A stretch of DNA of 64,000 bases from Hericium rajendrae (Eukaryota; Basidiomycota; Agaricomycetes; Russulales; Hericiaceae): positions 2,728,001 through 2,792,000 of the forward strand of contig CM065883.1 in assembly GCA_033439255.1 (NCBI GenBank), written 5' to 3'. Each line of letters begins with the position of its first letter. Positions within the stretch are counted from its first letter, which is position 1. Positions 20,463 through 57,500 of the stretch are shown piece by piece. A model generated the notes under the pieces. It was not told where the DNA came from. It saw nothing but the letters and a program-made list of their open reading frames with translations, and searched no databases. The position numbers were made by a program, and so were the translations under genes.

Positions 20463-20626
20463 ACTGAATGCAATCCTCCCACCACGTTATGCGCCGCATC
20501 GTCACGTGACGCTTTCCCGCGCGTCGTCCCAACTGCCTATTTCGGACGCGCGGCTTACCTCTGCCTTCGAAATACTTGCTGACCCTGTTTCTGGCCCGAA
20601 TAAAATCATATAAAATCGGGTAAAAT
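20463..20626 (+). repeat. MULE terminal inverted repeat, left
   Basis: It begins ACTGAATGCAATCCTCCC and matches the reverse complement of 24465-24628 over the full 164 bp with about five differences. All of these are at CpG sites: CpG on this side, TpG or CpA on the other. Confidence 0.9.
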
Positions 20627-20744
20627 CGAATAAAATCGAGTAAAATCAGATAAAATCGGATATATATATATACAATTAAAATATATAAAAGGCTCTTGTT
20701 AAGTATTGTTTCAAGTGAAAAATAATTTAAATTGAGCACATGCT

Positions 20745-23700
20745 CTACAAATCAGATGTTATTTGATATCCCATCACATTCCTTGCTCTTTCATTATCTC
20801 TTCCACCTGTTCCCCAGGTGGTTTTCCTTTTCTGCCCAGTTTCTTCAACCTTCTTGATGTCATCTCTAAAATTCTTCAAGTCCTTGGCAAATCCTGGCCT
20901 TGTAACATTCTTCAAGAAAAGCTTATTTTTGAATGGAAGCTGAGATTCTATTATATTTGCTGCTTCTCTTGCCATGCTAATTTTCTCCTTTGCTTCTTCA
21001 ATAAGCTAAGAGTAAAATGATCAGAGAAGAAAAAGTTGTCAGAAATACTTTGATGATTTTACCTCATCTATATCATCTTCTCCTTCAGCTTCAGCTTCAG
21101 AAGGTGCCCTGCTTGTGGTCTCCAAGTCATACTCCTCCAACATATCATCAACCTCATTGACAGATGCTGCCACAGAGCTGCATCTGCTTCGTTCTTCCAA
21201 CATATTAGGAATATTCTCAGGGATGAGATTCTCCCAGTATTCTCTACTCTCAAGCATCTGTTGATCACCTAGCCAAACATGGTCATCACCATCTGTAATA
21301 GATCCATCCAAAATGTCATCTTGCTCCTGACCAATCTGCTGAATAGTGCCATTCTGAAACAAATCATGTCGATAAAGGGGAATGGTCCGGCGCCGAGTAA
21401 TTTGTTTCCAAAAGGCTGTTGGAATAGGTCCAACAGCATCAACCAAATGTTTGCAGAGGTGAAAGGCATGATACTTTTGAGCACCACAGTTACACAACCA
21501 GGTCTTCACATCAACAATGTAAGAATGTTCAGAAAGAGAGATGTTGGACAATTTGAGCCAGGCTTTTTTGAAGTAGTTTTGTGCACTTGTGGCAGCTCGA
21601 GATCGACCTGCACAAAATGAATCTTCAAGAGCACCTGCACGCTGCATATATGCAGGTGTAACTTTGGTGCATAAGATATAGACAAGTTGATCAAGACGAG
21701 GTCGAAGAAGATGATGAAGTTGATCATGTTTGAGCTGCTTCCAGAAATTCTCCACATTCATGGTAGTACGAAGTCGAGAAAGAAGACGAGAGGTTGAGCG
21801 AGCCCAAAGTGGCCACTGCTTGGATGAGTACCACTGAGTCCACATATAGCCCCAAACTTCTCGAAGACCACGAGTCTTGCAGAAGTGATACATCTCATAA
21901 ACAGCATTTCGATGAATCTGCAAAGCAAGATTCTTGTAATCTGCTAGACGATCTGGCCCAGTGATTTCAAGGCGTTCAGGAAAGATAGGATGCTGACAGA
22001 AATGTTTGGTGAAAAGATGAAGAAGCTGCCGACGATGGGGTGCTGGACAAAATGTGTAGTCACGATCTTTAGAGACTACCTCGCCTGGGTCAAACATCCA
22101 GTCAGGAGCATCTTCCTCATCAGAAGATTTGTCTGCATCACAAAGGTGATCCAACTCTGTTAAGAGATCACCAACCTCATCTTGTTTGTCAGAGGAATCA
22201 GCAGGAATTGAGGTATCCTCCATATCTTCAACAGTAGGACCAAAAGAAGTTTCTTCCAACTGCACTTCAGTATTACTAGGATTGGATGATTCTTGGATAG
22301 CCTGTGAGGAAGTAGAAGCAGGTCGAGCTGGAATATGAATAACAAGTCGAGAAGCAGAGGGAGGAGGAGCATTTTGAAGAACACCATTTAAGCGAATAGT
22401 GAGACGAGGAATTGCTTGTGTTGCAATATATAAGGGATCAGAAGCCTAATAATAATATTAATCACTGAGCTCAATATATCAAAAATTGAGAGACTTACTC
22501 CAACTTCATCTTGCTGACCGATAGGTACAAACTTTTTATCAATGAAAGAGAACTCTGAATGAGCATCTGTAGCATTGTAGAATGCTGGAGTACGACGTAG
22601 AATGGAAAGCCTAGTCTTGACTGCACGAAGAGCATGCCAAAAGCATAACTGATGCTTAGCATCAGGAAAGACTGAACGCATGGCATTGATTTCTGATCTA
22701 TCTTTGTCTGAAAGTGTTATAATGGCTTTGACTTTGCACTCTTCACGAAAGTAGACAAGAAATTGCTTTAGAAGTCGCTCCTTGGCACCTGTATCTACAG
22801 AGGTTGATGATTGAATCATGATATAACCAAGTGGGAGACCAGATCCATATGCCTCTCCAAGAAGTGCATAAAGCTCAAAGCGTGAACCATTGGTATTCCC
22901 TAAAGATGTTAAGTACTTTTAAAGATAGAAGACATTTCACAAGACTTACAGGCTGAATCAATTGAGATTTCTCTAATCTGTCCACCCCATTGAAGAAGAA
23001 TATCAGGAAGACAAAAGGCCAAAGCTTTACAGCCACCTTCTTCTTCAATTGGAATTGGCAAAACTGAATATGTTCCAAGTTGGCCTTTCCTTTGACCTTC
23101 TTGAAGAAGAATTTGAGCAGATTGAAACTCATCTTCATGCCGCTTCCATTGAGTACTATTATGGGTAGACCAGATATGATAAACAGATTTTCGAGTAAAA
23201 GCTGGATGAGGATGATCCTTTAGGATAGCCTCCCATAACTGAAATGATCACTCTTGTTAGTAAAATCATAGTTTTTTTAAAAAAAATAAGGTAAATACCT
23301 GAGCAGGAGTCAAATTCAGATTGTCTTTGATGAAGTCTTTAACAGAATCAGGAATTGTAATCGAGCAATATGGAACATGGCTCATATGATGCTGTAGTCG
23401 AACTTCCACATTTGATGAGCCTGAATGAAAAACAATATCAAGCCATCCAGAGCAGTAAAACCCTAGCATTCCAGTTTTGTCACGTTGCTTTGCAGGATCA
23501 ACAGCTGTCTTCTTAGATTTTTTGAGACGTTGAGTCAACTGAGCACAGTGAAAGCGAAAGCGTATGCCAGGATTGCGCTTAAGTGGGAAAGTACGATGAT
23601 ATCTAAATATAATATATTAGTCAATACTAAAAATGAATAAATGTGAGAAACATACAGCCAACGATAATTTGTTAGCTCCCAGATTGACTGAGCTAGTTGC

Positions 23701-24177
23701 TTGGCAACTTGATCTTGTTGACCTTTCTCATCTAGAGCTTCACCATCAAAGAATGCTTGCATGAGGCTTGAAACATCCACAATGCATTGAAAATTGAGCT
23801 GATCATCCTGAGCAGAAAGTGTTGTCATAAACTGATCAAGTGAAAGAACAGATAGATTTTCGAGATCCTATGATACTTTTTAGTAATGTGTAGCATTAAA
23901 AGGATATACATACTTCATCATCCTCATCCTCATCCTTATCTTCATCATCTTCAGTATCATTATGTGATCTCTTCTGCCTAGCAACACGCTCCTTTTGAAT
24001 TGCAGACTGTCGTTCACTACACTGTGAGCATGCAGTTTTGACTTGTCCTTTGGTCTTGCCCTTGATAGCAATACTAAAAGCAGAAAGAGGTAAGATTTTA
24101 TGACATTTCTGGCATTTCTGAGTGTTTCCATTATCAACAGAAGCCTGGCTTATGTCAGAAGAAGCAGTAGACATCAT
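20745..24177 (-). CDS. MULE transposase with SWIM zinc finger
   Basis: The gene has about eight exons on the minus strand. The N-terminus (ATG near 24177) has a CxxC..CxxC zinc-binding pair (CQKCHKILPLSAF, CSQC). The catalytic region shows REISIDSA joined to WNTNGSRFELYALLGEAYGS (first Asp block). SDKDRSEINAMRSVFPDAKH and QLCFWHALRAVKTRLSILRR follow, the standard MULE second-Asp block. Next is NVENFWKQLKHDQLHHLLRP, carrying the expected Glu, and then a SWIM finger WLCNCGAQKYHAFHLCKHLV (CxC..CxH). An acidic stretch and a short basic C-terminus end the protein near 20745. All exon joins that I followed (for example near 21000, 22450 and 22920) keep frame and no disabling change was found, so the enzyme may be active. 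Exon edges are read by eye. Confidence 0.8.
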
Positions 24178-24464
24178 GATATAAAGTTTCTTGAAGATAA
24201 AGACAAAAAGTTATCCAAAAGACAACAAAGGGAGCAGAATTGTCCAAAAGACAGAAACACTCAGGAAACTAGACAGGACTGGCCAGAAGACACTGAAGAT
24301 AAGCAGAGTGATGATGTGGCAGGAAGCAAAGTTTTCAATGTGGCAGTGCTGATCATTCAGTCATTATATCATAACTTATTATTGATTTTTGCAGTATTTT
24401 ACCTTTCTAACTTTGCTTATATACATCAGAACAAATATCTATACTTCAGATAAAACAATATACA

Positions 24465-24628
24465 ATTTTACCCGATTTTATATGATTTTATTCGGGCCAG
24501 AAACAGGGTCAGCAAGTATTTCGAAGGCAGAGGTAAGCCGCACGTCCGAAATAGGCAGTTGGGACGACACGCGGGAAAGCATCACGTGATGATGCGGCAC
24601 ATAACGTGGTGGGAGGATTGCATTCAGT
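24465..24628 (-). repeat. MULE terminal inverted repeat, right
   Basis: This is the reverse complement of the left repeat, ending GGGAGGATTGCATTCAGT. At each difference it carries the deaminated form (CpG to TpG/CpA), so this end seems to have been methylated or otherwise mutated more than the left end. Confidence 0.9.
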
Positions 24629-26129: not shown

Positions 26130-26132
26130 TCA

Positions 26133-27190
26133 CACTGGGTGCAGATTTTAATAACTGGTGACGAGATACTGAGAAATTATCAAATACAAAGTATTACATT
26201 TCTTTTGATAACTGGCACCACAATATCAAAAAAACAACAGAAACTTCTTTTCAATAGTTAGAGCTTAACTATGAAATGAAAAGTTTGACTTTGATTCTCA
26301 TAGTATCACAATATCAACACAATATTGAGCTCAATATATTGCACTGGCCTATGAAAGAGCTTTTTTAAATATTTTTTACAATTGCTTTACAACTTCAACA
26401 TCATTTTTTTCTTAATAACAAATACAATGCTATACTAATACTAGGGCTAGATTATGATTAACAATATTACATATATCATTTTGATACATATCATATAACT
26501 GGACATGAAAATTTAAAATAATCTTCAGCTATCATATTCGTACCTTTTCAATGTTTTCTCAATATCTGAATATCAAGTATAACAAAAATCTTGAAAAATT
26601 CTTTTAAACAAGCTATAAGAAGAATGTTGAAGATATTATAGTATAAATAAGACAATATTAAAATCAAAGTTGAAACATCATTTTAATACTGGTGACCAGT
26701 TACGAAGATAAAATTTTGAATTTTATACAAATTTCTAAGACAAAGTATCAGCATGAAATTGAAAACATATTATGATGTTATTAAAAACAAAAAAACTATA
26801 TAAAGAGGAAATAAAAAGACATTCTAAGTATTATTAAAAATAAATTGAAAGATTAACAGAAGAATATTGAGATTTAAAAGTAAAACATTATTATAAACTA
26901 AAATTGAAAGTACATTAAATCTCATTTACTGTTTAGACTCTATTATTTGCAACTTTACAGTATTACGTTCTGCAATTCTGTAGTGCTAAACTATATAATT
27001 TGATTACATTATATTTTACAATGCTATATTATATTGCAGTGCTACAAGATACACTATAGCAGTGCTATATTATGTAGTGCAAAAATGCTGTATCATACAG
27101 TGCTACAGTTGTACAGTAATTTAATGTGCAATAATACATAATTATTATCTTACAATACTGCATCATACAGTCCTGCAATGTTAAATTGTA
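26133..27190 (+). repeat. 1.06-kb terminal inverted repeat, left
   Basis: This is a very AT-rich arm that matches the reverse complement of 31161-32221 with only about five small differences that I could find by reading (for example GGTGACG against GATGACG near the tip). That is above 99 percent identity, implying a recent or homogenised insertion. Confidence 0.9.
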
Positions 27191-28595
27191 CAGTCTTATA
27201 GTGCTGCTTTGTGCAGTGCTGCTGTGCCACTTTGTACAGTCCTGTAGTACAGCTTTGTGCAGTCCTGCACTACTACTTTGTGTAGTCCTGCACTGCCACT
27301 TTGCGCAGTCCTGCACTGCAGCTTTGTGCAGTCCTGCACTGCTGCTTTGTGCAGTCCTGCACTGCTGCTTTGTGCAGTCTTGCAGTCCTGCACTGCAGCT
27401 TTGCACAGTCCTGCACTGCCACTTTGCACAGTCTCGCAGTCCTGCACTGCAGCTTTGCGCAGTCTCGCAGTCCTGCACTGCAGCTTTGCGCAGTCTTGCA
27501 GTCCTGCACTGCTGCTTTGCACAGTCTTGCAGTCCTGCACTACCACTTTGTGTAATCCTGCACTGCAGCTTTGTGCAGTCCTGCACTGCAGCTTTGTACA
27601 GTCCTGCAGTGCAGCTTTGTGCAGTCCTACAGTGCAACCTTGTACAGTTCTGCACTGTAGCTTTGCCCAGTCTTGTACTGCAGCTTTGTGCAGTCTTGCA
27701 GTCCTGCACTGCAGCTTTGTGCAAAACTGCAGTGCCACTTTGCGCAGTCTTGCACTGTCACTTTGTGCAGTCCTGCAGTCTTGCAGTGCAGCTTTGCACA
27801 GTCTTGCAGTGCAGCTTTGCGTAATTCTGCACTGCAGCTTTGCGCAGTGCTGCATTGCAGTTTTGCACAGTCCTGCAGTGCTGCTTTGTACAGTCTTGCA
27901 GTGCTGCTTTTTGCTTTGCGCAGTCCTGCAGTGCAGCTTTGTGCAGTCCTACACTGCCACTTTGTACAGTCCCATACTGCCACTTTGTGCAGTTCTGCAC
28001 TGCCACTTTGCATAGTCCTACAGTCCTGCAGTACAGCTTTGTACAGTCTTGCAGTGTAGCTTTGTGTAGTCCTGCACTGCAGCTTTGTGCAGTCCTGCAC
28101 TGCTGCTTTGTGCAGTCCTACACTGTCACTTTGCACAGTCTCACAGTCCTGCAGTGCAGCTTTGTACAGTCCTACACTGCAGCTTTGTGCAGTTCTACAC
28201 TGTGGCTTTGTGCAGTCCTGTAGTATTGCTTTGCACAGTTCTACACTGTGGCTTTGTGCAATCCTACAGTGCAGCTTTGCGTAGTCCTGCAGTGCTGCTT
28301 TGTGTAGTCCTGCAGTGCTGCTTTGCGTAGTTCTGCAGTGCTGCTTTGCATAGTCCTGCAGTGCAGCTTTGCACAGTCTAGCAGTCCTGCAGTGCAGCTT
28401 TGTGCAGTCTTGCAGTGTAGCTTTGCGCAGTCCTGCACTGTCACTTTGTGTGGTCCTACAGTCCTGCACTGCAGCTTTGCACAATCTTGCAGTTCTGCAC
28501 TGCAGCTTTGTGCAGTCCTGCACTGCTACTTTGTGCAGTTCTGCACTGTCACTTTGCACAGTCTCACAGTCCTGCAGTGCAGCTTTGTATAGATT
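27191..28595 (+). repeat. 23-bp minisatellite, left arm part 1
   Basis: The period is 23 bp with consensus CTTTGTGCAGTCCTGCACTG plus CAG or CTG. Some units carry an extra TCTTGCAGTC or TCTCGCAGTC insert of about 10 bp. The unit contains CTGCAG palindromes. Because 23 is not a multiple of three, consecutive units run through all frames, which produces several overlapping long Cys/Gln/Leu-rich open frames that are not genes. Confidence 0.9.
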
Positions 28596-28811
28596 CAATG
28601 GTGGGTAGAGCTCGACACCTCTGTCAGGTCTGGTGCGTTCTTGACAGTCCTTGAAAATCCAAGGGAATGAATAATTTTCACACCTGGTCATACTCATAAC
28701 TGCAACAGGTCTCCAAGGTGAACAGCCTCTAGTTGATAGAACAATGTAGATAAGGGAAGTCGGCAAAATAGATCCATAACTTCAGGATAAGGATTGGCTC
28801 TAAGGGTTGGG
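28596..28811 (+). rRNA. Captured fragment of the large-subunit (25S/28S) rRNA gene, decayed
   Basis: This non-repetitive island splits the left minisatellite arm. From memory of eukaryotic LSU rRNA it matches a highly conserved block: AGGTCTCCAAGGTGAACAGC, CTCTAGTTGATAGAA, GATAAGGGAAGTCGGCAAAA and ATAAGGATTGGCTCTAAGGG occur in the right order and spacing, sense on the plus strand. It is about 216 bp of a gene of more than 3 kb, so it is not a functional rRNA. Several CpGs expected in the rRNA are TpG or CpA here (for example CCATAACTTCAGG where CCGTAACTTCGGG is usual). Confidence 0.85.
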
Positions 28812-29597
28812 TGTATCTTGCAGCTTTGCACAGTCCTGCAGTGCAGCTTTGTGCAGTCCTGCATTGCTACTTTTTGCAGTTCTGCAGTGCAGCTTTGCAT
28901 AGTCCTGCATTATAGCTGCCACTTTGCACAGTCCCACAGTGCCACTTTGTGCAGTCTTGCAGTGCTGCTTTTGGCTTTGTGCAGTCCTGCAGTGCAGCTT
29001 TGCACAGTCCCGTAATGTTGCTTTGCATAGTTCTGCATTGCTGCTTTTTGCAGTCCTGCAGTGCAGCTTTGTGCAGTCCTGCACTGCAGCTTTGCACAGT
29101 CCTGCACTGGAACTTTGCACAGTCTCACAGTCCTGCACTGCAGCGTTGCACAGCCTTGCAGTGCAGCTTTGCACAGTCGTACACTGTCACTTTGCACAAT
29201 CTTGCAGTCCTGCAGTGCAGCTTTGTGCAGTCCTGCACTGCAACTTTGCGCAGTCCTACATTATAGCTTTGCACAGTCCCACAATGCTACTTTGTGCAGT
29301 CTCACAGTGCTGTCTTTGGCTTTGTGCAGTCCTGCAGTGCTGCTTTGCACAGTTCTACACTATGGCTTTGTGCAGTCCTGCACTGTAGCTTTGCACAGTT
29401 CTGCACTGTGGCTTTGTGCAGTTCTACATTGCAGCTTTGTGCAGTTCCACATTGCAGCTTTGCACAGTCCTGCAGTGCTGCTTTGTGCAGTTCTGCAGTG
29501 CAGCTTTGCACAGTTCTGCACTGTGGCTTTGTGCAGTCCTGCAGTGCTGCTTTTTGCAGTTCTGCAGTGCAGCTTTGTGCAGTCCTGCATTGCAGTG
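28812..29597 (+). repeat. 23-bp minisatellite, left arm part 2
   Basis: The 23-bp unit continues beyond the rDNA island in the same orientation, with more variation (TTTTTGCAG and TTTTGGCTTTG units) than in part 1. Confidence 0.9.
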
Positions 29598-29825
29598 AGC
29601 GGCATGGAAACTTGAGAGCCTCCTTTGAGTTCCATCACCAAAGCTGAAGGTCAGAGGCATAGATGGAGTAGGACACATCACACAGCTTGTATCTGTTTGT
29701 GACCATGAGCATACGTCCATTTTCTTAAGGGATGATATCAAAGCTTGCAAAGCGAGTGAGAAGTTGAAGCTTGTTAAGAGAATAGAGAGACTGAGGTTTG
29801 AGGAAACGAGAAATGAATAGCATGT
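29598..29825 (+). repeat. Inner inverted repeat, left
   Basis: Pairs with 30132-30365. Examples of matching blocks are ACCAAAGCTGAAGGTC, GCATAGATGGAGTAGGACA and AGAGAATAGAGAGACTGAG. The arms are more diverged than the outer inverted repeat, with several small gaps. Confidence 0.8.
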
Positions 29826-30131
29826 AGATAGATGTCCCATCGCTCTTTGCCAGAGCGATGAGTTAAGTACAAAAAGATATTTAAAGGTCCATTACTGTAC
29901 AGTACCAAGCCCAGTCCTGCTTGACTACTTGTATTCCAGATCCTGGCACTCTGGGCCAATAAGGCGTATCATTGCAAGGCATGCCTTGACTCATTCGGGG
30001 TCCTCTGGGGTCCTGCATCACATGCTCCCTTTGTCTCTTTTCCCTCCTTCAAAAACCCTGCTTCCCACAATGCCTCTCTTGCCATCTGCCTAATGACCCT
30101 TCACCTCTCCCCACCCAATGACCCTATCTAC
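29826..30131. other. Unique core of the palindromic element
   Basis: About 300 bp of single-copy-looking sequence lie at the centre of the inner inverted repeat. I see no gene, tRNA or known motif. It is CT-rich on the plus strand in its right half. Confidence 0.5.
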
Positions 30132-30357
30132 ACGTTATTCATTTCTCGTTCTCTCAAATCTCAGTCTCTCTATTCTCTTAATGAGCTTCGACTTCTCACT
30201 CACTTCATGAGCTTTGATATTGCCCCTTAAGGAAATGGAGGTACCCCCATGGTCACAAATAGATACAAGCTGTATGACATGTCCTACTCCATCTATGCCT
30301 CCGACCTTCAGCTTTGGTGATAGAACTTGAGGAAGGCTCTTGAGTTTTCGTACTGCT
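30132..30357 (-). repeat. Inner inverted repeat, right
   Basis: Inverse of 29598-29825. The minisatellite begins immediately beyond it on the right, mirroring the left arm. Confidence 0.8.
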
Positions 30358-31160
30358 CACTACAATGTAGGACTGCACAAAGCTACACTGCAGAACTGCA
30401 CAAAGCAGCACTGCAAGACTGTGTAAAGCTGCACTGCAGAACTGCAAAAAGCAGCACTGCAGGACTGCGCAAAGCCAAAAGCAGCACTGCAAGACTGCAC
30501 AAAGTGGCACTGCAAGACTGTGCAAAGCCATAATGCATGACTGTGCAAAGCTGCAGTGCAAGACTGTGCAAAGCTGCACTGCAAGACTGTACAAAGCCAA
30601 AAGCTGCAGTGCAAGACTGCACAAAGCAGCACTGCAGGACTGTGCAAAGCAGTACTGTGGGACTGTGCAAAGCCGCACTGCAGAACTGCACAAAGCAGCA
30701 CTGCAGGACTGCACAAAGCAGTAGTGCAGGACTGTGCAAAGCAGCACTGTGGGGCTGTGCAAAGCTGCACTGCAGGACTGCAGAAAGCAGCAATGCAGAA
30801 CTGCACAAAGCTGCACTACAAGACTGTGCAAAGCTGCACTGTAGGACTACGCAAAGCCAAAAGCAGCACTGTGAGACTGTACAAAGCAGCACTGCGGGAC
30901 TGTACAAAGCAGCACTGCGGGACTGTGCAAAACTGCAATGCAGCACTGCACAAAGCTGTAGTGCAGGACTATGCAAAGCTGCACTGCAGGACTGCAAGAC
31001 TGCACTGCAGGACTGCGAGACTATGCAAAGTGGCAGTGCAGGACTGCGCAAAGCAGCAGTGCAGGACTGTGCAAAGCAGCACTGCAGGACTGTGCAAAGC
31101 AGCACTGCAGCACTGCGCAAAGCAGCACTGCAGCACTGCGCAAAGCAGCACTGCCAGACT
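30358..31160 (-). repeat. 23-bp minisatellite, right arm (inverted)
   Basis: The same unit as the left arm in opposite orientation (CTGCAGGACTGCACAAAG). This arm is about 0.8 kb against 2.4 kb on the left and lacks the rDNA island, so copy number has changed independently on the two sides. Confidence 0.9.
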
Positions 31161-32221
31161 ATACAATTTAACATTGCAGGACTGTATGATGCAGTATTGT
31201 AAGATAATAATTATGTATTATTGCACATTGAATTACTGTACAACTGTAGCACTGTATGATACAGCATTTTTGCACTACATAATATAGCACTGCTATAGTG
31301 TATCTTGTAGCACTGCAATATAATATAGCATTGTAAAATATAATGTAATCAAATTATATAGTTTAGCACTACAGAATTGCAGAACGTAATACTGTAAAGT
31401 TGCAAATAATAGAGTCTAAACAGTAAATGAGATTTAATGTACTTTCAATTTTAGTTTATAATAATGTTTTACTTTTAAATCTCAATATTCTTCTGTTAAT
31501 CTTTCAATTTATTTTTAATAATACTTAGAATGTCTTTTTATTTCCTCTTTATATAGTTTTCATTTGTTTTTAATAACATCATAATATGTTTTCAATTTCA
31601 TGCTGATACTTTGTCTTAGAAATTTGTATAAAATTCAAAATTTTATCTTCGTAACTGGTCACCAGTATTAAAATGATGTTTCAACTTTGATTTTAATATT
31701 GTCTTATTTATACTATAATATCTTCAACATTCTTCTTATAACTTGTTTAAAAGAATTTTTCAAGATTTTTGTTATACTTGATATTCAGATATTGAGAAAA
31801 CATTGAAAAGGTACGAATATGATAGCTGAAGATTATTTTAAATTTTCATGTCCAGTTATATGATATGTATCAAAATGATATATGTAATATTGTTAATCAT
31901 AATCTAGCCCTAGTATTAGTATAGCATTGTATTTGTTATTAAGAAAAAAATGATGTTGAAGTTGTAAAGCAATTGTAAAAAATATTTAAAAAAGCTCTTT
32001 CATAGGCCAGTGCAATATATTGAGCTCAATATTGTGTTGATATTGTGATACTATGAGAATCAAAGTCAAACTTTTCATTTCATAGTTAAGCTCTAACTAT
32101 TGAAAAGAAGTTTCTGTTGTTTTTTTGATATTGTGGTGCCAGTTATCAAAAGAAATGTAATACTTTGTATTTGATAATTTCTCAGTATCTCGTCATCAGT
32201 TATTAAAATCTGCACCCAGTG
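31161..32221 (-). repeat. 1.06-kb terminal inverted repeat, right
   Basis: This is the inverse of 26133-27190. It ends CTGCACCCAGTG, followed by the TCA duplication. Confidence 0.9.
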
Positions 32222-32224
32222 TCA

Positions 32225-35345: not shown

Positions 35346-35954
35346 CAGTGGCGTGTTCTCTGCGAGCGGGCTCGTCTTGGACTTGGTCCGTTTCGGTGGC
35401 TGAACGAGAGCAAATTCGTGCGCTCCTGGAACAGGGGGTGGTATGAACGACGATGAAGGAGATGGAAATGGAGACGAGGAAGGCAGACGGTCGACAGAGA
35501 GCGAGAGAGTCGGGTGATCTAGGCTGCGTCAGAGACGAACGACGCGTTAAATATGGAATCGGAGACGCCACCTTTTGTTTCAGAAGCAGAGGACATGAAT
35601 GAACTCGACTTCGCACAATCGATATTCGTTCTTTCACGTCTGCAACGGCGCGTTGCCAAGGGCTTCGGCGTCAAGTTGTAACCAGTTCGGCAGAATCTGG
35701 TGCGTCTGTTGCGCCCTATGTCATTCGCTCTTATTTTGAAGGACGATACTCACGGCAAGTCAGTAATCACAGTCCGCGGAGACTTGGAGTCTCGCGATAC
35801 GGAGCAGCTGTCGTCGTCGTCGTGGCCAGCGAGCTCTGAGGTCGTCGCTCTGAGTAGGAATTGTTCAGACAATTTCAAACATGGGACTTATCTAACCTAT
35901 TTCCGGGTCTGGTTGATTTTCGGAGATTCAATATAAGTTTTTGATAAGTCCTCC
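35346..35954. other. 5' region of SH3 gene and intergenic
   Basis: The part up to about 35528 is probably coding or leader of the SH3 gene (open minus-strand frame). From there to 35954 I see no gene. Confidence 0.4.
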
Positions 35955-37084
35955 AACAGAGCAATTATCGACCTGGTATCTTTCTTCCACTCAGACCGTC
36001 ATGCAGCAGCGGATCAGGCTGTCTCGACAATATACTGCTGGATACCGCCAAAGGCTATACGCTTCCCCATGTGTCTCGTACGTGTCCATCTCAGTCGCTA
36101 TGCATTAAGTATCATACTTCTCGGTGCGCACGCGGCCGCCAGCAACTGCCAATGAACTAAACCTCGTGAGCGTCGGTCATATGCATGATGTATCTTAACT
36201 TTCGAGACCAGATCTTCGTAGCTGTGTCTCCAATGAAGAAATTCTGATCCCTCCTTTTTCAGCCCGTTCAATAGGGCATCGGCCATCTTCATTCTTTTTG
36301 ATGCACACGAGATTTCTGCTGGTTTCGTTTTCGATGGTATCACTCACTTACTAATGAAGAGCTGGATTTCATTTGCGAGCAGACGTGTCTCAGGAAGCGC
36401 ATACCCGCGAAGAAGAGGCAAGGCAAGCCTAGCGGTCTTCCCGTCTCTGCTATAGGTTTACACTCGACTTGTGTAGCTGATGCTTGTCTCTCTCCTCGAT
36501 GCCGAACTCTTCTTGATAACTCGCTCCATGCGCGGGCCTATACCAATCAATGCGGTTGACGCGATGACTTCAAAGGTAAGCCATATGCACAAGTTATAGA
36601 CTGTCGCTGACCCTGTTCTGTATGGTTTTCAGAACTAGCGCCGTATCAAGCCGTTTGTTACCGGAGAGAAAGATACAAGGAATGATTCGCTCTACGAGAC
36701 TCACCCGAAGTACTCTTTGACAACTCGGATCACTCCGCTTTCGGGCTGCGTACTCATGCCGCCAATGAAATTGTGAGCATGTTCAGCCTTCCCACCTCCG
36801 TCGACCAGGTGATATACATCACATCCTTCTGAGACATGGTAGGCATTCTTCAATTGTGGATCGCAGCCGCTCTGTTCATACCATGCATATAAGTACGCCT
36901 GCGCTATTAACGGTGTAATATATCCGATTTACGAGCTTCGCATGAGGACAACTTAACTTCGCTGGCGAAGGTGGGTAGATCAACAACTACATATATACAT
37001 TTAGAGTACTTGAAACGACTGCGATGCTCAGATCCACCAAGGCACGCAGATTTCAGGTCAACTAGTCACCATTGCGGACGGCAG

Positions 37085-37632
37085 GCTATCATGGGTATCG
37101 GTACACTGCTTCGCCGTTCCACTTCAATGTGGAGTCGACGATTGAATCCTTCAACGTGGTCAAAGGCACGAAGAGCGACGCCGAGCTGGCCTTTATCGGC
37201 GTCGTGTAGGTCGACATGCACGACGTAGTGTATCGCAAGCGGACGTTCCGGCAGCTCAGAAGGCTGAGGCTAGCAGGGAGAGAATCATCGTCAGCGCATG
37301 TATGCTCTCGCCTGATTTAGCGAGGATCTGAGCCTTTTATTACAGGGATGCATGTACTACTGGGAGGAGATCAGTAAGCTTTCGTACCTCTCAGCGAACA
37401 ATATCTAATATGGCTCAGAGTCGCTAGCCGCAGTCGATGTCGCCAACTCGTTGCAGTACCCACTCATCACAACACCATGGACCAGCCGGACGCAACGAAG
37501 GAAATGAAAGGAGGATATGATCGACTATGCCACCAACAAGTGTGACCACGTTCTTGGCATTCAATTCCGCTCGCTGCCGGATTCAGCCAGATATTTCCTA
37601 ATCGATTTCAAGGCGCACGGATTGGCGCAGTG
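37085..37632 (+). pseudogene. SDR reductase pseudogene A
   Basis: Fragments of the SDR family seen at 16.4-20.1 kb are present on the plus strand: TASPFHFN, then directly FNVVKGTKSDAELAFIG, and a C-terminal DYATNKCDHVLGIQFRSLPD with FLIDFKAHGLAQ. The central exons with the active-site YxxxK are missing, and frameshifts and stops interrupt the rest (for example a stop just after AFIGVV). It cannot encode an enzyme. The same internal deletion is shared with pseudogene B. Confidence 0.75.
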
Positions 37633-37931
37633 TGCGGTGAGATAATGATATTACCTAGACACAATTGTATGTACAGTACGTATAATATCGCAGCCCATGG
37701 AGTTTGTGAGGCCAGCACCCTCAACATGCCGGAGATATGGAGATCCCGAAAGCAAAAAATGTGTTGGGCAGATTGAGGTCATCTGGTAGTACTGTATTCC
37801 GATGAGGCCAATAGTACCTATCCATACAACCATTGTATTTGAACGTCAAGAAATCACTAATCATATCCACAGAAGGACTTTAAGGAACAGATACTCGAGA
37901 GCTCGCAAATCGTCAGCAAACATGAACGAGA

Positions 37932-39372
37932 CTACACGTGAGGCAGGAACGTCGTCCACCGAACTGTATCAAAGACGCCTGCAGGTAAGCAACGAAGTCC
38001 GATGAACATCTCGACGAATATGAAACCACGAGACACGATGTACAAGACTGAAACAAGTATCCACACGATACGGTCTATACGGTCTTCGATCTGGGTCGGA
38101 AGGCTGGCAACAAGGTCCGAGCCTGACAACATCATAACAACACCAGGGAGAGAAGTCAGGATTGATGCTATGCGCCATAACCATTTCTCGGCGATGGAAG
38201 GAAAGACGAAGTTCCATGCCAGGCAATGCCACCCGCCATATAACAGACAAACCAATGTCACCGTCACCGTTTCACGAAAATCATCATCTGTTACCCGGTC
38301 AAGCCAAACTTGCTTCAGTGGCTTCTTAACAACTTCGAGTAATCTTTCCCGTTCCTCAATTGCTACATCCCTGGCCGGCGTGTCAACATGCGCATCCAAT
38401 TCCTCGCCATCGCGAGATATGCCGCGAGTCTCCCAAGAAAGAACTTCCAAAGGCATCAGAACATCCTTCGGTTTGTACCAGAAGAGGCCATTAAAAGCGA
38501 TGGCGATGAAGACATAGCCGATGGTGCCGATCTCGAGCGTCGACATGGGGAGATGTTGGATGGCGCGTGCAAGGCATTGGATAGCCAGCCAGAGGGCCTG
38601 CGCGCAGGTGAGGGTTTTACCGAGAGCATCCGATTTGCTCTTGTCGCGTATCTCTGTGGCGCGGGAGGGTTGTGGCGGTATCGTCTTGTCTTTAATTAGC
38701 TCCACGATTTTGCGGGCGTGAACCGGCTCCCCATTGTGAGTGAATCCTCCCATTTCTGAGAAAAAACCGTCATCCATGGTCCACACGTCTGTTCCGGAAA
38801 GCTCTCCCTCTTGATTGACGTGTCTCATGGCCTGATAAGCTCGGGACCATCCTTCGACAACGTACATCAAGAGACATTCTGGAACGAGAAGCGTTATAAG
38901 CATCCAGAAAAATTTCCAGGAAATCCTCTTTTCCCGTTCACAGGCGAAGGGGTGATTGTAAAAATATGTGAATTCTTTTTTTGTTGGTAGATCAAGATGA
39001 AGTGACGTCCACGCGCAGAGACCCAGCGTGGTGAGGCAGGACCAAAGGATGCCAAACGTCCCGCGCCCCGCAGGATCGGGTACGAATCCAAGCATGGTCA
39101 TATTTGCAGTCTGCCATGCTGTCAGAAAAAGGAATGGATAAAATATACGATCAACAGCGCACCATTGTGAAGGTTCAGCAATCAAAAACGGACGTTGGTG
39201 AACGTGAATGTGGATGGCGATGACTGTCAGGTCAACGGATCTCCCTGTTTTCAAAGAATGAGAACGGTTTCCAAAGGAAAGAACAGGCGTGCATAACGAC
39301 AGTACCTTGAAGTTCAGATTGTGGATGCGGCGGCGACGGCTGGAGTGGTTGCAATAGGTGCTGCCACGGCAT
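37932..39372 (-). CDS. Multispan membrane protein of an uncharacterised agaricomycete family, copy A
   Basis: Exon 1 is 39372-39306 (MPWQHLLQPLQPSPPHPQSE) and exon 2 is 39244-37932; the 61-nt intron (GTACTG..CAG) keeps frame. The product has 459 residues. Hydrophobic segments include FYPFLFLTAW, FGILWSCLTTLGLCAWTSLH, FFWMLITLLVPECLLMYVV, GTIGYVFIAIAFNGLFWYK, TVTLVCLLYGGWHCLAW and IVWILVSVLYIVSRGFIFVE. Between segments are conserved TMDDGFFSEMGGFTHNGEPV and DALGKTLTCAQALWLAIQCL. I know this pattern (RGTFGILWSC..CAWTSLH) as a large fungal family without a known function. No disabling change was seen. Relatives: copy B at 41.4 kb and a fragment at 8.6 kb. Confidence 0.8.
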
Positions 39373-40695
39373 GAAACTTGCGGAGAAATGGCCGTACATA
39401 TAATATTGCAATTATTTCTGATATTCCTAGATTATGGTGTCCGAGGCCCTTCCATCCTCTCAGGAACCCTGTTCAATAGACTATTATTTTGTTTAAGTCA
39501 GTGTTCATTCATTCGATAGAGCAATCGTCGACCTGGTATCTTTCTTCCACTCAGACTAAGCAGCAGCTACAGTCTAGTAAACGGAACTCAAATTTCGCGC
39601 CTTAGAATCGCTGAGCAGTAACGAGAACCAGGTCGTCGTGTACTGCGACAGAATTACTGCTGGATATCGTCAAAGGCTATGTGCTGCACCACGCATCTCG
39701 TACGTGTCCGTCTCAGTCGCTATGCAATATTACTTATAGTTCCCGATACGCACGCGCCCGCCAGCAACTGCCACTGAACTGAACCCTCGTCGGCTTCGGT
39801 CATACGTATCACTAACGTCCGAGACTGCAGATCTTTGCAAGTAGCTGTGTCTCCAATGAAGGAATTCTGAACCCGTCCTCTGCAATGCATTCAACAGATT
39901 ATCTGTCATCCTCATCCTTTCGAGGCGTACGAGATTTTTACTGGTTTCATTTTTGATGATGTCACTTATGTAGTGAAGAGCTGGACTTCATTTGTGACTC
40001 GTGAGGCGAAGTTTCTGCCATAGGTTTATAGCCTTCCTCATGTCGGGATTTCGTCTCCCTCGATTCCGTTCTCTTCTTGACCGCGTCCCTGCTATCCATG
40101 GCAAGCTCACACCAGTCAACACTATCGGCGCGAGGACTTCAAAAGTAAGCCATGCACACAAATCACAGACTGTCGCTGACTCTGTTCTGTAAGGTTGCCA
40201 TTGCGAACTAGCGCCGTATCAAACTTTTGCTACCGGGAAGGTTAAGTACAAGATATGACTCGCCTTACAGACTACCCGAAGTGTTCTTTGACGACTCGGG
40301 CCACTCAGCTATCGGGCGACGTACTCGTGCCGCCAATCAAATCGTGAGCATGCTCGGCCTTTCCACCTCCGTCGACCCAGTGTTTTGTGTCACATTTTTC
40401 TTTGGGCATGACGAGGATCCGATCGCGGATCGGAGCCGCTCCGTTGATAAACCATGCAGCTGAGCACACCTGCGCTATGAACGCTAACGTCTCGAGGAAA
40501 TATTGGGAAATCATGAATTATAGAGGCTCATGATCCTACGGCGGCCGGGCAGCGCCTAAGGACTATGCATTAACCTCCGTTGGTTAAGATGGGTGGGCCC
40601 ACAATCACATATCCAGAATACCGGCTGCGACGCTCAGACCTACCCGAAGCCCACAGATTCCAGATCAATTAGCCTCCGTTGCCGATGACAGGCTG

Positions 40696-41230
40696 TCAAG
40701 GGTGTCGATCGCGTGGACTACATAGCTTCACCGTTCCACTTTAATGCGAAGTACACGCTTGAATTCTTCAACGTGGTCAAAGGCACGAAGAGCGACGCCG
40801 AGTTGGCTTCCATTGGCGAAGCATGGGTTGACGTGCGCGACCTAGCGCAAGCACATGTTGTAGCAGCTCAGAAGGCTGAGGCTGGCGGGGAGAGAATCGT
40901 CGTTAGCGCAGGTATGGCCTCGCCTTTTAATGTTGCGATTGAAGGGATCCTGAGTCTCGTAATGCAGTGCCCTATCACTGGCATGAGGTCGGTAAGTTTC
41001 TGTATCTCTTGCAGCATGTCTTCTAGTGAACAAAATTCTGATTTAAGGTCGCCGGCCGCAGTCGACTTGGCCGACTCGCTCCAGCTGCTGCCCGTTACGG
41101 ACGTTGTCAATGGCCAGCCTAACGCGGCACGCGAAATGGGGAATGTGATCGCATTCACAGCATCCGGTCCCACTCGCTGCAGGATACGATCCAGGATATC
41201 CTGGTTGATTGCAAAAGAGGGTATAGTTTA
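40696..41230 (+). pseudogene. SDR reductase pseudogene B
   Basis: From the plus strand: IASPFHFNAKYTLEFFNVVK, GTKSDAELASIGEAWVDVRD and LAQAHVVAAQKAEAGGERIV with VSAG. This part is open and close to SDR copy 2 (18.65-20.13 kb). The Rossmann start and the central catalytic exons are absent, and the downstream part (near 41.05-41.22 kb) is only recognisable in pieces. It is better preserved than pseudogene A but still lacks both cofactor loop and YxxxK. Confidence 0.75.
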
Positions 41231-41406
41231 GAGATATGGACATCCGGAAAGCCGGACGGAAATGCTTTTGGAAGCATGACATCGTCCTGCTCATATTTAA
41301 TTCCAATGACGCCAAGAAGGCCACAAATCATAACATAATTATTTACATAGGACTGTGAGGAACAAAGACTCGAGAGCCGCCACATCATAGGTAAATATGA
41401 ACGAAA

Positions 41407-42615
41407 TTACACGTGAGGTATGAAGGCCATCCACTGAACTGTATCGAAGACACCTGCAGGTAAGCGACGAAGTCCGATGAACATCTCGACCATAATGAAT
41501 ATACGAGAGAAGCAGTACATAACGAGAGAGATGACAAAGATGACAAGTAAGACAACATATACCAGCTGAGCGATAAAATCCGGTACCAGGTCGTCAAGGA
41601 ACCTCGGAGTCCTAGAAAAAACAGCGGTTCCCACGACAAGCATGAAATACCCAAGAGCAGTCACGATGGATCCTATACGCCATAACCATTGCTCGGCGAC
41701 AGATGGAAATGCAAAGTTCCATGCCAAGCAGTGCCACCCGCCATATAATGCACAAACCGATATTGGTACTATGACCATCACAAGATCTTCAACTGCATCT
41801 TTTGTTAAATGGTCGAACCAAGCTTCCCATCGAGTTGGTGACTTCCTGCCAGAAAATAAGGAGTTCTCTTCCTCATTATCTGCGACGTCTCTCGCTGATA
41901 TATCAACAGATGCATCCGGCTCCTCTCCATCGGGAGACGTCCCGCGAGTGCCCCACGGACACACTTCCAGGGGTATAAGGACGTCCTTTGGTTTATGCCA
42001 ATAGAGGCAATTGATAGTGATGGTAATAAAAACGTAGGCGACGGTGCTGAGCTCGAGCGTCGATAGGGGAAGATGTTGGATGGTGCGAGCAAGACATTGG
42101 ATAGCGAGCCAGAGGGCCTGCGCACAGGTCAAGGTTTTCCCGAGGGCATCAGACTTGCTCTTGTCACGGATCTCTTGGGCACGGGAGGGCTGTGGGGGTA
42201 TCGTCTTGTCTTGAATTAGTTTTACAATGTCGTTGGCGTCGACAGGCTTCCCATTGTGAGCAAATCCCCCCATGACCGAAAAAAAGCCATCATCCATGGT
42301 CCACATATCCGTGCCACAAAGCTTTCCCTCCCGATTGATGTGTCTCATGTCCTTGTAAGCTTTGCACCACTCGTCAGCGGCTTCCATCAAACCGAATTCT
42401 GGCAAAAAAAGCATTGTAAACATCCAGGTTGTTTTGAAGAAAACCCTGTCGTTTCGATGATAGCCGCCGTGAAGACTATCATCATAGTCGATTTCCTCTT
42501 CCAATGGTAGACCAATATGAAGCGAGGTCCATGCACAAAGGAATAGCGTAGTGAGACAGGACCAGAGGATGCCAAACGTTCCACGTTCCGCAGGATCGGG
42601 TACGAATCCACGCAT
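41407..42615 (-). CDS. Multispan membrane protein family, copy B (N-terminus degenerate)
   Basis: A 402-codon frame from ATG 42615 is parallel to copy A from its residue MTMLGF onward: RGTFGILWSCLTTLFLCAWT, TMDDGFFSVMGGFAHNGKPV, DALGKTLTCAQALWLAIQCL, LYGGWHCLAWNFAFPSVAEQ and FIMVEMFIGLRRLPAGVF. Membrane segments are conserved. Upstream, sequence homologous to the start of copy A is still readable (the CAG acceptor followed by GGAGGCACATTGCC, and WCAADHVF). But the region equivalent to its first exon has no matching ATG and reads into a stop in the needed phase. Either the protein starts at 42615 without the first hydrophobic segment, or the copy is decaying. Confidence 0.65.
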   Translation of the reverse strand: MRGFVPDPAERGTFGILWSCLTTLFLCAWTSLHIGLPLEEEIDYDDSLHGGYHRNDRVFFKTTWMFTMLFLPEFGLMEAADEWCKAYKDMRHINREGKLCGTDMWTMDDGFFSVMGGFAHNGKPVDANDIVKLIQDKTIPPQPSRAQEIRDKSKSDALGKTLTCAQALWLAIQCLARTIQHLPLSTLELSTVAYVFITITINCLYWHKPKDVLIPLEVCPWGTRGTSPDGEEPDASVDISARDVADNEEENSLFSGRKSPTRWEAWFDHLTKDAVEDLVMVIVPISVCALYGGWHCLAWNFAFPSVAEQWLWRIGSIVTALGYFMLVVGTAVFSRTPRFLDDLVPDFIAQLVYVVLLVIFVISLVMYCFSRIFIMVEMFIGLRRLPAGVFDTVQWMAFIPHV

Positions 42616-42900
42616 GATTGTGGCTGTAGTCTGCGGTGCTGTCAGAAATAGGACTGGACAAAAGACATGATCAGCAGCGCACCATTGTGGAGGAGCAATG
42701 GGAACCAGAGATAGACGTTCGCAGATGCGGGTGAGAATGGTTCTCGGGGCAATGTGCCTCCCTGTTTTCAGAGAATGAGAAAGGTTTCCGAGAGAACGAG
42801 CATAACGACAGTACCTTAGAATCAGTGTCGTGGACGCGACGGCAGCGGCTGGAGAACTTGGAAGGCGGCGGCGATAGGTATATAAGTATCACCAAAGATA

Positions 42901-47189: not shown

Positions 47190-48045
47190 GCAGTTTAGGG
47201 CCGGCAGTGATACATCTTCGAGAAATGTAGCGATGCGTTGCTACGTGGTATCGAGGCGGCGAGGGTATCGAGTGCTTCCGGACGTGGTACGGCGGGCAGG
47301 CGATCACTGCAAAGATGTCAGAAGGTCGTTACCGCGATTAAAAGCTATTAGAACCCAAGCCAGAGAATTTGAAAACTCACCAACTATAGATCACATTTCC
47401 AAGACTTAGGCAGCCTTTGATGATCTTCACATAGGTATGTATTGCCCCTGGCATACCCTTGTAAGAGGTTACATTCTGGCGCAACCACGGTGACGCGTGA
47501 CAGTGCTCGCCGGGGAATAACCGACTGAAACGTTTTTGCTGATGAACGTGCTGCCTGACTGCATCGGAACTTTCGTGGAAATCACAGAGAATCGAAAACG
47601 GTTCCTAATCATTCTATCCTTAGCACCGGTCAATGAACTGTGTGCCATCGTGAAGACAGCAGTTGCGTACTTATCTGAAGTAGAGTAACGCTGCTACTTA
47701 GCAAGAGCACTAGCATCAGCAAAAACGTTTCAGTCGGCTATTCCCCGGTGAGGACTGTCACGCGTCACCGTGGTTGCACCAGACTGTAATCTCTTACAAA
47801 GGTATGCAAAGGATAATACATACCTATGTCAAGATCATTCAAGGCTGCCGGAGCCTTGGGAAGCTGACATCTTGATGGTGAGTTTTTGAAATCTCTGGTC
47901 CGATAGCTAATAGCTTTCAATTCAGATAACGGCCTTCTGCTGCCTTTGCAGCAGTCGCCTGCCCGCCGTACTGCACTCGGCATTCCCGGCGTCCTCTAGC
48001 AACGCAGCACTACATTTTTTTCAAGGTGCGTCGTCGCCGGCCCTA
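47190..48045. repeat. Inverted pair of intron-containing gene fragments
   Basis: The left arm, 47190-47545 (read on the minus strand), and the right arm, 47711-48045 (plus strand), are diverged copies of one sequence facing outward from a 165-bp spacer. Both encode a similar peptide (KRFSRLFPGE, CHASPWL, SYKGM, IHTYVKII). Both then show GTGAGTTTT..donor-like sequence about 50 nt before a shared ACGGCC/ACGACC block and CGCCTGCCCGCCGTAC. The shared splice-like layout argues for a former gene rather than a simple foldback repeat. Product not recognised. Confidence 0.5.
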
Positions 48046-54518: not shown

Positions 54519-57500
54519 TTGAGATACTTGGTCCCCTTGCACCCCCCGGTACTCTGTTGGTTTTGGTTTTGGCTGCCGCCTCCATTCCCAGGGTCCACAC
54601 ATCATTTTGGAGCCCACTGCGAGGGTTCCATACTCAAAATAGAGCCACGTCATACTAGGAGTAGCGCACGGTCGAATCCAGATCGTACCCTCGAACAAGA
54701 AGTCCGTGTTGTGACTCAGGACCCTCAGCAAGCTTCCCCCGACCTACCGTCACCTTTCCCACCGGTTCCAACTCCCACTAGTCCCCTTACTCCCATCGAC
54801 GAAGAGTTCGAAATTTCTGAGCTTGAGCGTTCCTTCATCGTTCCTACTCCACCTGTATCACCAACCCCGGCGCTGCGACCCCTTGCCAGCCCCTCTGCTA
54901 CCGCAGGTCCTAGGACAACGCCACACCAGGCGACTTTGCCTGCTACCCCCCATCCCCCTTCTGCTACTCAACAACACAGCCCGCTAGCCCCTGCACATTT
55001 CCCCTTCCCCAGGCCACCAAGTATCCAACCAGTCATGCTGCCCCCCTCCATGCCTATGCGTGGCGAGAGTGGTGCTCCCAAGTTCGACACCAACTCCCCC
55101 CGTGAGCTGGGCCGTTACTTCCTCGATCTCGAATTTTGTTTTCAGCATTCCTCCATGGCAGATGACATGGAGAAAAAGAGTCATGCGGTCCGTCTCCTCT
55201 CAGACGTTGACGCACAAGAGCTGTGGCAGTCCGAGGCCAAGTACGCCGCTGGCACTTGGGACGAATTCAAGAAAGCTATCCACGAACTCTACCCAGGCTC
55301 GGCTAAGGAGAATACCTTTTCGCGTCAAGATTTGGAGTCACTCGTGCACCGAACCGCCGAGTCCACCCTCAGTTCTGTCGGCGAACTTGGTGCGTTCTCA
55401 TGCGAGTTCACGGTCATCACGCGCTACCTGAAAGGCAAGAACCGCATCTCCGATATCGAGGAACAACGCTGGTTTTTGGCGGCGCTCCCCGAACGTCTTC
55501 GCCTGTGGGTAGAGGACTGCCTTGCCCTTACCAAGCCTGATCACCATCCCAACGATCCACACCCAATCAACGACGTCTATAGGGCTGCAGAGTGGTGCAT
55601 GTATGGCACTGCCATCACCCCCGACCCGTACCTGCGTGGACCGTCTTCAACTCAAGCCACCGCGTCGTCATCAACCACCGATGCAGGCTCAGGAATGACT
55701 ATCCAGATTAAGAGTGAGCAGTTAGCGTCACTGGCCGATATCCTCTTGAGGAGCGCGCAGCAGCCATCGCGTCAACCGATGGTCTCCGGAGGTAATCAAG
55801 GCGTGCCAATGCGCGAGCAAATGGGGTCAGATCAGTGCAACTTCTGTGGGAACGTGGGGCATTTCATGCACAAATGCATGACAGCCCGGGAATACATGGC
55901 CACCGGCAAGTGCAAGAAGGACATCCAAGGCAAGATGGTCTTACCCTCTGGGGCTTGGCTCCTGCAAGGACCCCCAGGCACGACTATGGCCGAACGGATC
56001 GACGAATACCACCATATGAACCCCAATCAGCAAGCTATGGGTCAGCTTATGATGGGTGTAGCTGGTACCCACCAGGCAAGTTCACCGCAGGTGGGGCTCA
56101 CTCCCTACGGCTATCGTGTCACGCCGGCATACACTCAGACCACCGCATCTCCCTATACCCAGGTCCAGGCAGGGTTGTACCAGCTCACCACAGATGCACG
56201 GATCGAGAGCCTGGAGGGCGAGCTACGGCGGTTATACTAGTTGAAGGACGTCTCAGTTGTGCCCCCACCCAATGCCACGGCCAGCCGTGATAGAGCTAAC
56301 CAGGCGTTGGAACGAGCTCGCAGGATGGAAGAGCCTGCCTGCCAACCAGCCCCTCCACGATTGCCCTGTGCGCCACCGCGCCCGACCATCGAGGATGAAC
56401 CAGAGTCACCGCGGGCGTCCCTGCCCCCTCTGCAAGCTTCACTGGCCCCAGGCCCGGAACGAGACGTCCCCCCCCACCTTCTGTCTCAACCTGCAGTACG
56501 TGATGACCTCCGTGACCCTGATGGTCCCATCCACCCATTTGCCAGAGCCCGCGATGGTGCAAGGCCCATGCAAGTCCCAGTGATCGAAGTAGTCGAAGAG
56601 ACGGGCACAACCCGCCGTGCGCAAGACTCAGTCGGGCAAGACGTGCTGGACCGCGTGTTCGCGTGCGCCATGTCCCTCCCTATTGAGGTCACCCAGGGTG
56701 AGCTCTGGTCCCTGGTGCCTGCACTACGCACGAAATACAAGGAGGCAGTCTCACGGCATCACACACGTCTGGTGGTGGGACAGAACCTGTTGGAAGTCCT
56801 TAACGAGACTGACCTGCTCTCCGAGCTGCCAGGCGAAGATGCAGTCGAGGAGCTGGCCTTGCCAGCGCATCAAGTAGAGCTCACTGCAGGTATCCAGTTC
56901 GCGAGCGAGCCCGCCGAAGGTGACCGTGCACAGCACCCGGCCTCGCCCCCTCATCCACGGGTATCTATCCTTTCGCACCAGTGCGCTGAGCCGCCAGAAG
57001 GTGCTGTCGTCCTCCCGGATCCCTACGAGCAGTACCTCAAGCAACTCCGCCCGGATGAAAAGCCTAAACCCCTGATCGTCTCGTGCGAGTCTGCAGCACT
57101 GCGCTCTATTGCAGCACTCATAGATCATCAAGAACCGGTCGAGTGCATCTTGGACCCAGGTTCTCAGGTCATCTCCATGTCAGAGAGCGTTTGCTACACC
57201 TTAGGCCTGTCGTATGATCCCACGATTATCCTCACTATGCAATCCGCCAACGGCGAACTTGATGACTCACTGGGCCTGTGCCGAAATGTGCCTGCAGTCT
57301 TCGGCAACATTGTTCTCTACCTCCAAATACATGTCCTCCGGTCGCCCGCCTACGATATCCTACTCGGACGCCCCCTTCGATGTGCTTACCGAGTCTGTCG
57401 TGCGCAGCTACTGCAATGAAACACAGACCATCACCATCTTCGACCCAAACACCGGCGAAGCAGCCACGATCCCCACCCACCCACGCACTGACATTCAGTA

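Follow-up and report, generated by a model that had tools for sequence, protein, structure and literature searches.

A palindromic, minisatellite-armed element of Hericium rajendrae belongs to a family of seven copies and is very probably a non-autonomous CACTA/EnSpm transposon

The 64,000-nucleotide stretch of DNA analyzed here, referred to below as the window, covers positions 2,728,001 to 2,792,000 of contig CM065883.1 of the basidiomycete Hericium rajendrae (assembly GCA_033439255.1). It contains a 6,089-bp palindromic element at 26133-32221 (W; positions are those of the window unless another copy or contig is named), which belongs to a genuine transposon family with seven complete copies in the host genome (46.8 Mb in 19 contigs searched). 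Because of its CACTG ends, the 3-bp target site duplication (TSD), the seven dispersed copies, the empty sites, and the short relatives, W is very probably a non-autonomous, long-armed cut-and-paste transposon of the CACTA/EnSpm superfamily, presumably mobilized in trans by a tnp2 transposase. The first-pass annotation, made from the letters alone, had called the element CACTA-like and staked this call on the existence of a second copy or an empty site; the call has withstood the search, with seven copies, matching 3-bp duplications at all seven, and empty sites for three.

W is composed, in this order, of a terminal inverted repeat (TIR), array A1, a 200-bp spacer, array A2, a core, array B, and the second TIR (Table 1). 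The CACTG terminus and the TCA duplication described previously were found in place: CACTG starts at 26133, CAGTG ends at 32221, and TCA is present on both sides. The outer inverted repeat is 99.5% identical over 1,039 aligned bp, with three substitutions at 1,034 compared positions, so that the earlier value of above 99% identity stands and the earlier length of 1.06 kb is slightly too long. The arms of the 23-bp unit are indeed mirrored, with 61 and 34 motif matches in the + orientation and 33 in the - orientation (89 and 32, respectively, by a second count), and the reported threefold difference between them is close to the observed 2.8-fold (about 2.2 kb and 0.77 kb). The mirrored inner repeat was recovered as well (224 bp per arm, 85% identical). 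In addition, the left array is divided by a 28S rRNA fragment, a feature absent from the first-pass annotation. Since 2,436 20-mers have an inverted partner inside W, compared with a maximum of one in 50 mononucleotide shuffles, a chance origin of the palindrome is excluded. Alone among the seven copies, W has no recognizable extra DNA; it shows no nested insertion, nor was any transposase recognized within the 6.1-kb copy.

A genome search with the first 268 bp of W gave 14 near-full-length TIR matches forming seven inverted pairs, and one further weak end (62 bp, 82%, C1:521383-521444, L019) outside these pairs. The other copies are C12 (10,632 bp), C5 (16,879 bp), C2 (15,501 bp), C9 (9,429 bp), C1 (8,268 bp), and the longest, C6 (C6:61896-147727, 85,832 bp). 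All 14 full ends start with CACTG. In each of the seven copies a + array adjoins one TIR and a - array the other, that is, the subterminal repeats face inwards at both ends as in CACTA/EnSpm elements; C9 has an additional small + array further inward. All seven contain the core: W, C1, C9, and C2 have it complete or almost so, C5 has it in split form, and C12 and C6 retain part of it. Among the approximately 100 listed of 346 matches to the 23-bp minisatellite pattern, all are inside family copies on C1, C2, C5, and C6. The left flank of C5 resembles at first sight the beginning of an enzyme gene, but a 25-aa frame in it has no Pfam or PDB match.

The six copies outside the window range from 8.3 to 85.8 kb, and their extra length consists partly of nested transposons. 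Nested elements with CATC..GATG-like ends account for part of the extra DNA in C2, C5, C6, and C9, and Ty3 retrotransposons are also nested in C5 and C6. One nested group of about 2.8-3 kb is PlavakaB-like by published criteria: its ends resemble CATCTGAGAAAA or CATCAGAAAA, and a 2-bp duplication is apparent. It was found in C2 (three times; L013/L014), C5 (L011/L012), C9 (L015), and at least three times in C6 (L017/L020, L024), with none in W; four of these insertions are within the 23-bp arrays and two within the core.

All seven copies have identical 3-bp flanks: TCA for W, C12, and C9, TGG for C5, TAT for C2, CCA for C1, and TTA for C6. For every copy, 90 bp of each flank were joined with one triplet omitted and used as the empty-site query. 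Junction-spanning empty sites were found for W at five nearly full-length places (80-99%) and at shorter ones, for C2 at four places (79-95%), and for C6 at one place (145 bp, 87%). A single triplet is present in each of the five places that were read: TCA in one and TTA in the other for W, TAT in both for C2, and TTA for C6; the 85.8-kb insertion thus closes on one triplet in the same way. Since empty copies of the flanking repeats exist, W and C2 were inserted into dispersed repeats. The empty sites bear also on whether one arm of the palindrome is an assembly artefact that falsely mirrors the other, as near-identical long inverted repeats are difficult to assemble. The architecture is common to seven loci, each of which has flanks of its own, a matching TSD, and TIR substitutions specific to it, and three of them have empty-site paralogs, which makes such an artefact very unlikely.

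The same CACTGGGTGCA ends occur in two groups of short elements. One, of about 380-390 bp, has members of 379-389 bp at C1:1228483-1228871, C2:1940206-1940594, C2:4204111-4204489, C10:456827-457215, and C14:1859325-1859713. The other, of 259 bp (C1:321029-321287, C1:3671175-3671433, and C6:2981789-2982047), is inferred solely from the spacing of opposite ends. Three loci of the first group, read at both ends, have 3-bp TSDs, TAA (L044 and L045) and TGA (L048). The end 11-mer has 56 matches in the genome, including the 14 family ends, versus 13 for the reversed control. Fungal EnSpm families, as described in the accessible part of one survey, have CAC..GTG ends and 3-bp TSDs (PMC12730594), and the mobile element CNIRT6 of the basidiomycete Cryptococcus neoformans is reported with TIRs that begin with CACTG and with variable 3-bp TSDs (PMC12810828).

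The long TIRs and tandem repeats around a non-coding middle also give the family a structural likeness to foldback elements. The family could instead belong to another superfamily (Mutator or P/Galileo-like), as a foldback-class element whose ends have converged on CACTG, and the very small number of copies recalls Tetris (PMC4079207) and, in part, Galileo (PMC3573991). However, the TSD is 3 bp in all seven copies, as opposed to 8-10 bp in Tetris and 7 bp in Galileo according to the same accounts, and superfamilies with 7-10-bp TSDs are already refuted unless the 3-bp duplications are coincidental. Moreover, the CACTG ends are shared with short elements having 3-bp TSDs. We therefore consider such membership very improbable and attribute the foldback-like outline to convergence. 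A PIF/Harbinger-type element, which would likewise make a 3-bp TSD, is highly improbable on the evidence of target duplications and ends, no search for a Harbinger transposase having been made. Harbinger prefers TWA target duplications; TAA is found at two of the three short relatives, but TTA or TAA at only one of the seven family copies, and the ends are CACTG.

A tnp2-type enzyme is the proposed partner. The genome contains 31 Transposase_21 matches, 29 of them above the family cut-off. One lies inside C6 (C6:81380-82489, PF02992, 5.3e-15), next to a frame with a weak, sub-threshold DUF4218 match, and 14 other strong homologs (39-54%) are located elsewhere. When the C6 protein is aligned with six homologs, one invariant D and the motifs C-x2-C and D-x-M-H stand out; the alignment did not reveal the third catalytic residue. 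The frame is broken by one in-frame stop, where the five best-scoring homologs read through. The autonomous relative with a CACTA transposase that the first-pass annotation proposed to look for is therefore indicated by this gene and not demonstrated. C6 may be the decayed autonomous parent, or merely the host of a stray tnp2. We also considered a separate nested CACT[AG]-ended element carrying the gene. With up to 3 mismatches in 13 allowed, five bracketing pairs have equal 3-bp flanks, all of them at exactly three mismatches, and the 300 pairs with unequal flanks predict about five equal-flank pairs by chance; at the similarity tested, a separate element is thus unsupported.

Another CMC-type transposase, for example Plavaka, could be the mover instead of tnp2. 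Plavaka has 132 matches in the genome, some of which are pieces of one gene, and its transposases have a recognizable similarity to EnSpm, but the same source gives its ends as TGT..ACA with a 2-bp TSD or CATCA..TGATG with a 2-3-bp TSD (PMC12730594), as against CACTG..CAGTG in the family, and we regard this possibility as very improbable. Two CACTGGGTGCA ends near Plavaka genes were examined and neither brackets the gene: L048 is a separate 390-bp element with the TSD TGA, and L047 is a match in an open reading frame (ORF) without a partner end.

The two TIRs of one copy are homogenized with each other. A tree was built from the 14 TIRs with 1,036 bp of each, or 965 bp for C5 and C2, whose ends all have a common gap of about 75 bp; it joins the two ends of every copy as sisters (7/7, local support 0.77-1.00). 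Within a copy the ends differ by 1-6 substitutions, compared with 5-47 between copies, and by raw count the partner from the same copy is the nearest end for 13 of the 14. The arrays (A1 of four, A2 of six, and B of six of the seven copies, best alignment per pair) behave differently: opposite arrays within a copy are 75-79% alike in all ten comparisons, no closer than arrays of different copies (76-99% for the same array, 73-81% for different arrays). Since the arrays are not homogenized within a copy, homogenization stops near the border of TIR and array. We suggest that the TIRs would be homogenized, upon insertion or later, by conversion or by template switching from one palindromic arm to the other, and that this process would stop where the arrays have diverged. 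The earlier description of the minisatellite as dynamic is borne out for the TIR-proximal arrays, which as cut are 807-1,764 bp long, some being shortened by nested DNA, and does not fit A2, which is 790 bp in three of six measured copies (W, C12, and C5) and, between W and C12, 99.2% identical without gaps.

Several observations weigh against the preferred reading. Four of the seven copies have no clear empty site in the flank-join search (C12 matched by its left flank only, C1 was ambiguous, and C5 and C9 found only their own flanks), and the empty sites are paralogs in the same genome rather than alleles of another strain. No intact transposase is linked to family ends, and the sole tnp2 inside a family member, with its in-frame stop, could be bystander DNA. 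Finally, the left end of C12 is five substitutions from the left end of W and six from its own partner, though the tree still pairs it with the latter.

Transposases of the tnp2 type act on terminal ends and insert with a 3-bp stagger. We propose that such a transposase, made elsewhere, would cut the family at its terminal CACTG ends. For the 23-bp arrays the best interpretation is that they are extended subterminal repeats and putative transposase sites. By analogy, plant CACTA elements have mirrored tandem repeats as a hallmark of their ends (PMC8978399), and the tandem repeats of Galileo are proposed secondary transposase binding sites (PMC3573991), as given in the accessible parts of these papers.

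The spacer of the left array reads as a captured rRNA gene fragment: the segment 28595-28822, searched by itself, aligns with positions 1748-1976 of RF02543 (182.8 bits). It is found inside one arm in six of the seven copies, with no match in C6. Only these six element copies were matched; either the contigs seem to lack the host rDNA or the search passed over it. Rfam microRNA and snoRNA matches in the arrays were below the gathering scores and were discarded. An RNA hairpin under selection in the core (aligned in four of the seven copies, pairs counted in five) is not supported, the mismatches having no clear bias towards RNA pairing: the inner palindrome has 20 G.U versus 15 A.C mismatches in W, and in C9 A.C (15) exceeds G.U (12). 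The core folds at -414 kcal/mol versus -201 kcal/mol for 20 shuffled sequences, as expected of any palindrome.

CpG is strongly depleted in W, with observed/expected ratios of 0.25 for the TIRs, 0.08-0.16 for the arrays (where, the unit being repeated, one site is counted many times), 0.32 for the 28S fragment, and 0.33 for the core, compared with 0.92 (10 kb) and 1.11 (16 kb) in the flanks. The variable site of the unit, CTTTG(NN)CAGT, reads TG 39 times, CA 28, CG 12, TA 9, and CC once in W, as expected of CpG deamination. The element may thus have been methylated and have decayed by deamination, that is, it may be silenced by the host. A survey of ten fungal genomes, in its accessible part, describes C-to-T decay of transposable elements with species-specific signatures, CpG among them (PMC4352252).

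We tentatively consider, as a rather doubtful possibility, that C6 moved whole as a giant CACTA element, unrelated to Starships, whose palindromic ends with their minisatellite arms enclosed tnp2, nested retrotransposons, and a SUN-domain gene. Between its TIRs there is one substitution among 1,023 positions, and in addition a gap of 26 columns. The long terminal repeat (LTR) pairs of its two nested Ty3 elements differ at 4/425 and 4/424 positions (8/849; Fisher p 0.014, with the TIRs entered as 1 in 1,020), three of these eight differences being of the CpG type. Because the TIRs are less diverged than the nested LTRs, the contents of C6 are, at face value, not younger than its ends, which would fit transposition of an already loaded giant element; closure of its flanks on an empty site is consistent with this. 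The difference could also arise if the TIRs were converted after insertion, if the CpG-richer LTRs decayed faster, or if the nesting came later.

The SUN-domain gene of C6 is 5 kb from tnp2 (C6:76002 with C6:81380). Elsewhere, a tnp2 and a SUN gene are at most 26 kb apart at C5 (tnp2 at C5:2864376, SUN at C5:2888516) and at C11 (C11:1365406 and C11:1391378), and these two tnp2 genes are the two best-scoring homologs. Such proximity is observed for three of the six SUN loci, but only for three of the 15 strong tnp2 loci, the other 12 being without SUN; SUN genes are possible cargo of large CACTA elements. A fragment of the ribosomal protein eL8 is located about 1 kb from the C6 core.

Table 1. 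Parts of the window element W and its target site duplications
Feature	Position	Strand	Remarks
Target site duplication TCA, left	26130..26132		single TCA at paralogous empty site L055
Left TIR, about 1.04 kb, AT-rich, begins CACTGGGTGCA	26133..27168	+	
Array A1, 23-bp unit, 61 motif matches	27184..28593	+	
28S (large subunit, LSU) rRNA fragment, 200 bp, sense on +	28609..28808	+	RF02543
Array A2, 23-bp unit, 34 motif matches	28824..29583	+	equal length in three copies
Core, found in 7/7 copies, holds inner palindrome	29599..30356		
Inner inverted repeat, left arm, 85% identical to right arm	29608..29831	+	
Inner inverted repeat, right arm	30124..30347	-	
Array B, 23-bp unit, 33 motif matches	30372..31145	-	
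Right TIR, ends TGCACCCAGTG	31184..32221	-	
Target site duplication TCA, right	32222..32224		

Other repeats were observed in the window. A DNA-transposon-like element of about 4.2 kb (20463-24628) has 170-bp inverted repeats at 96% identity, ACTGAATGCAATCC ends, and a perfect 10-bp direct repeat, TCTCACGTAT, as flanks, a Mutator-like TSD length; its 408-aa ORF has only a sub-threshold Pfam match. A 685-bp inverted-repeat structure (47287-47971) has 266-bp arms at 81%, GTACGGCGGGC ends, and no clear target duplication. Ty3-type remains occupy 56241-60341, with RNase H and integrase zinc-binding domains at 57525-60341 and a sub-threshold aspartyl protease-like frame at 56241-57419. Finally, two diverged direct copies of about 3.5 kb lie in tandem (35934-39354 and 39494-42863; 70-83% in the listed blocks) and contain ORFs of 440 and 402 aa without Pfam match, possibly a tandem gene duplication.

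Comparison with known systems relies on the accessible parts of the papers cited. CNIRT6 differs from W in its length of about 7.5 kb, 24-bp TIRs, and coding transposase (PMC12810828), W having TIRs of about 1.04 kb, 23-bp arrays, and no recognized transposase. The survey of fungal EnSpm families centers on those carrying TET/JBP genes, and in the sections available none is described with kilobase-scale mirrored arrays or an rRNA fragment (PMC12730594). The plant CACTA element Jozin has a 28-bp TIR in its complete C. quinoa copy and subterminal inverted repeats of several hundred bp, and its available description includes no near-perfect 1-kb TIR (PMC8978399). SmTRC1 of Schistosoma is also a Transposase_21 element with a tandem-repeat region, and its relatives are named in fungi and animals, but its 54-bp TIR begins with CCC and its duplication is 2 bp (PMC1636069). 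Among animal elements, Tetris of Drosophila virilis resembles the family in its long three-domain TIRs (flank, tandem repeats, and inner part), non-coding middle, few complete copies, and a short relative with shared ends; besides the TSD, it differs in having units of about 220 bp and was assigned to Mutator by its authors (PMC4079207). Galileo likewise has long, internally repetitive TIRs, but belongs to the P-element superfamily (PMC3573991). In the literature covered, which largely leaves out subscription titles, the accessible texts yielded no CACTA element that combines kilobase-long homogenized TIRs with minisatellite arms, none that has captured a piece of 28S rRNA, and no 86-kb basidiomycete CACTA element.

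If C6 moved whole, basidiomycetes also have giant cargo-bearing transposons. The family itself provides a fungal case in which the subterminal-repeat design of CACTA elements can expand to kilobase-scale mirrored minisatellite arms with homogenized 1-kb ends, and such arms converge on the foldback design of Mutator and P elements in animals. As a single genome offers seven copies together with empty sites and short relatives, two questions become testable: why long TIRs homogenize within a copy, and whether the arrays are selected as landing sites for the transposase.

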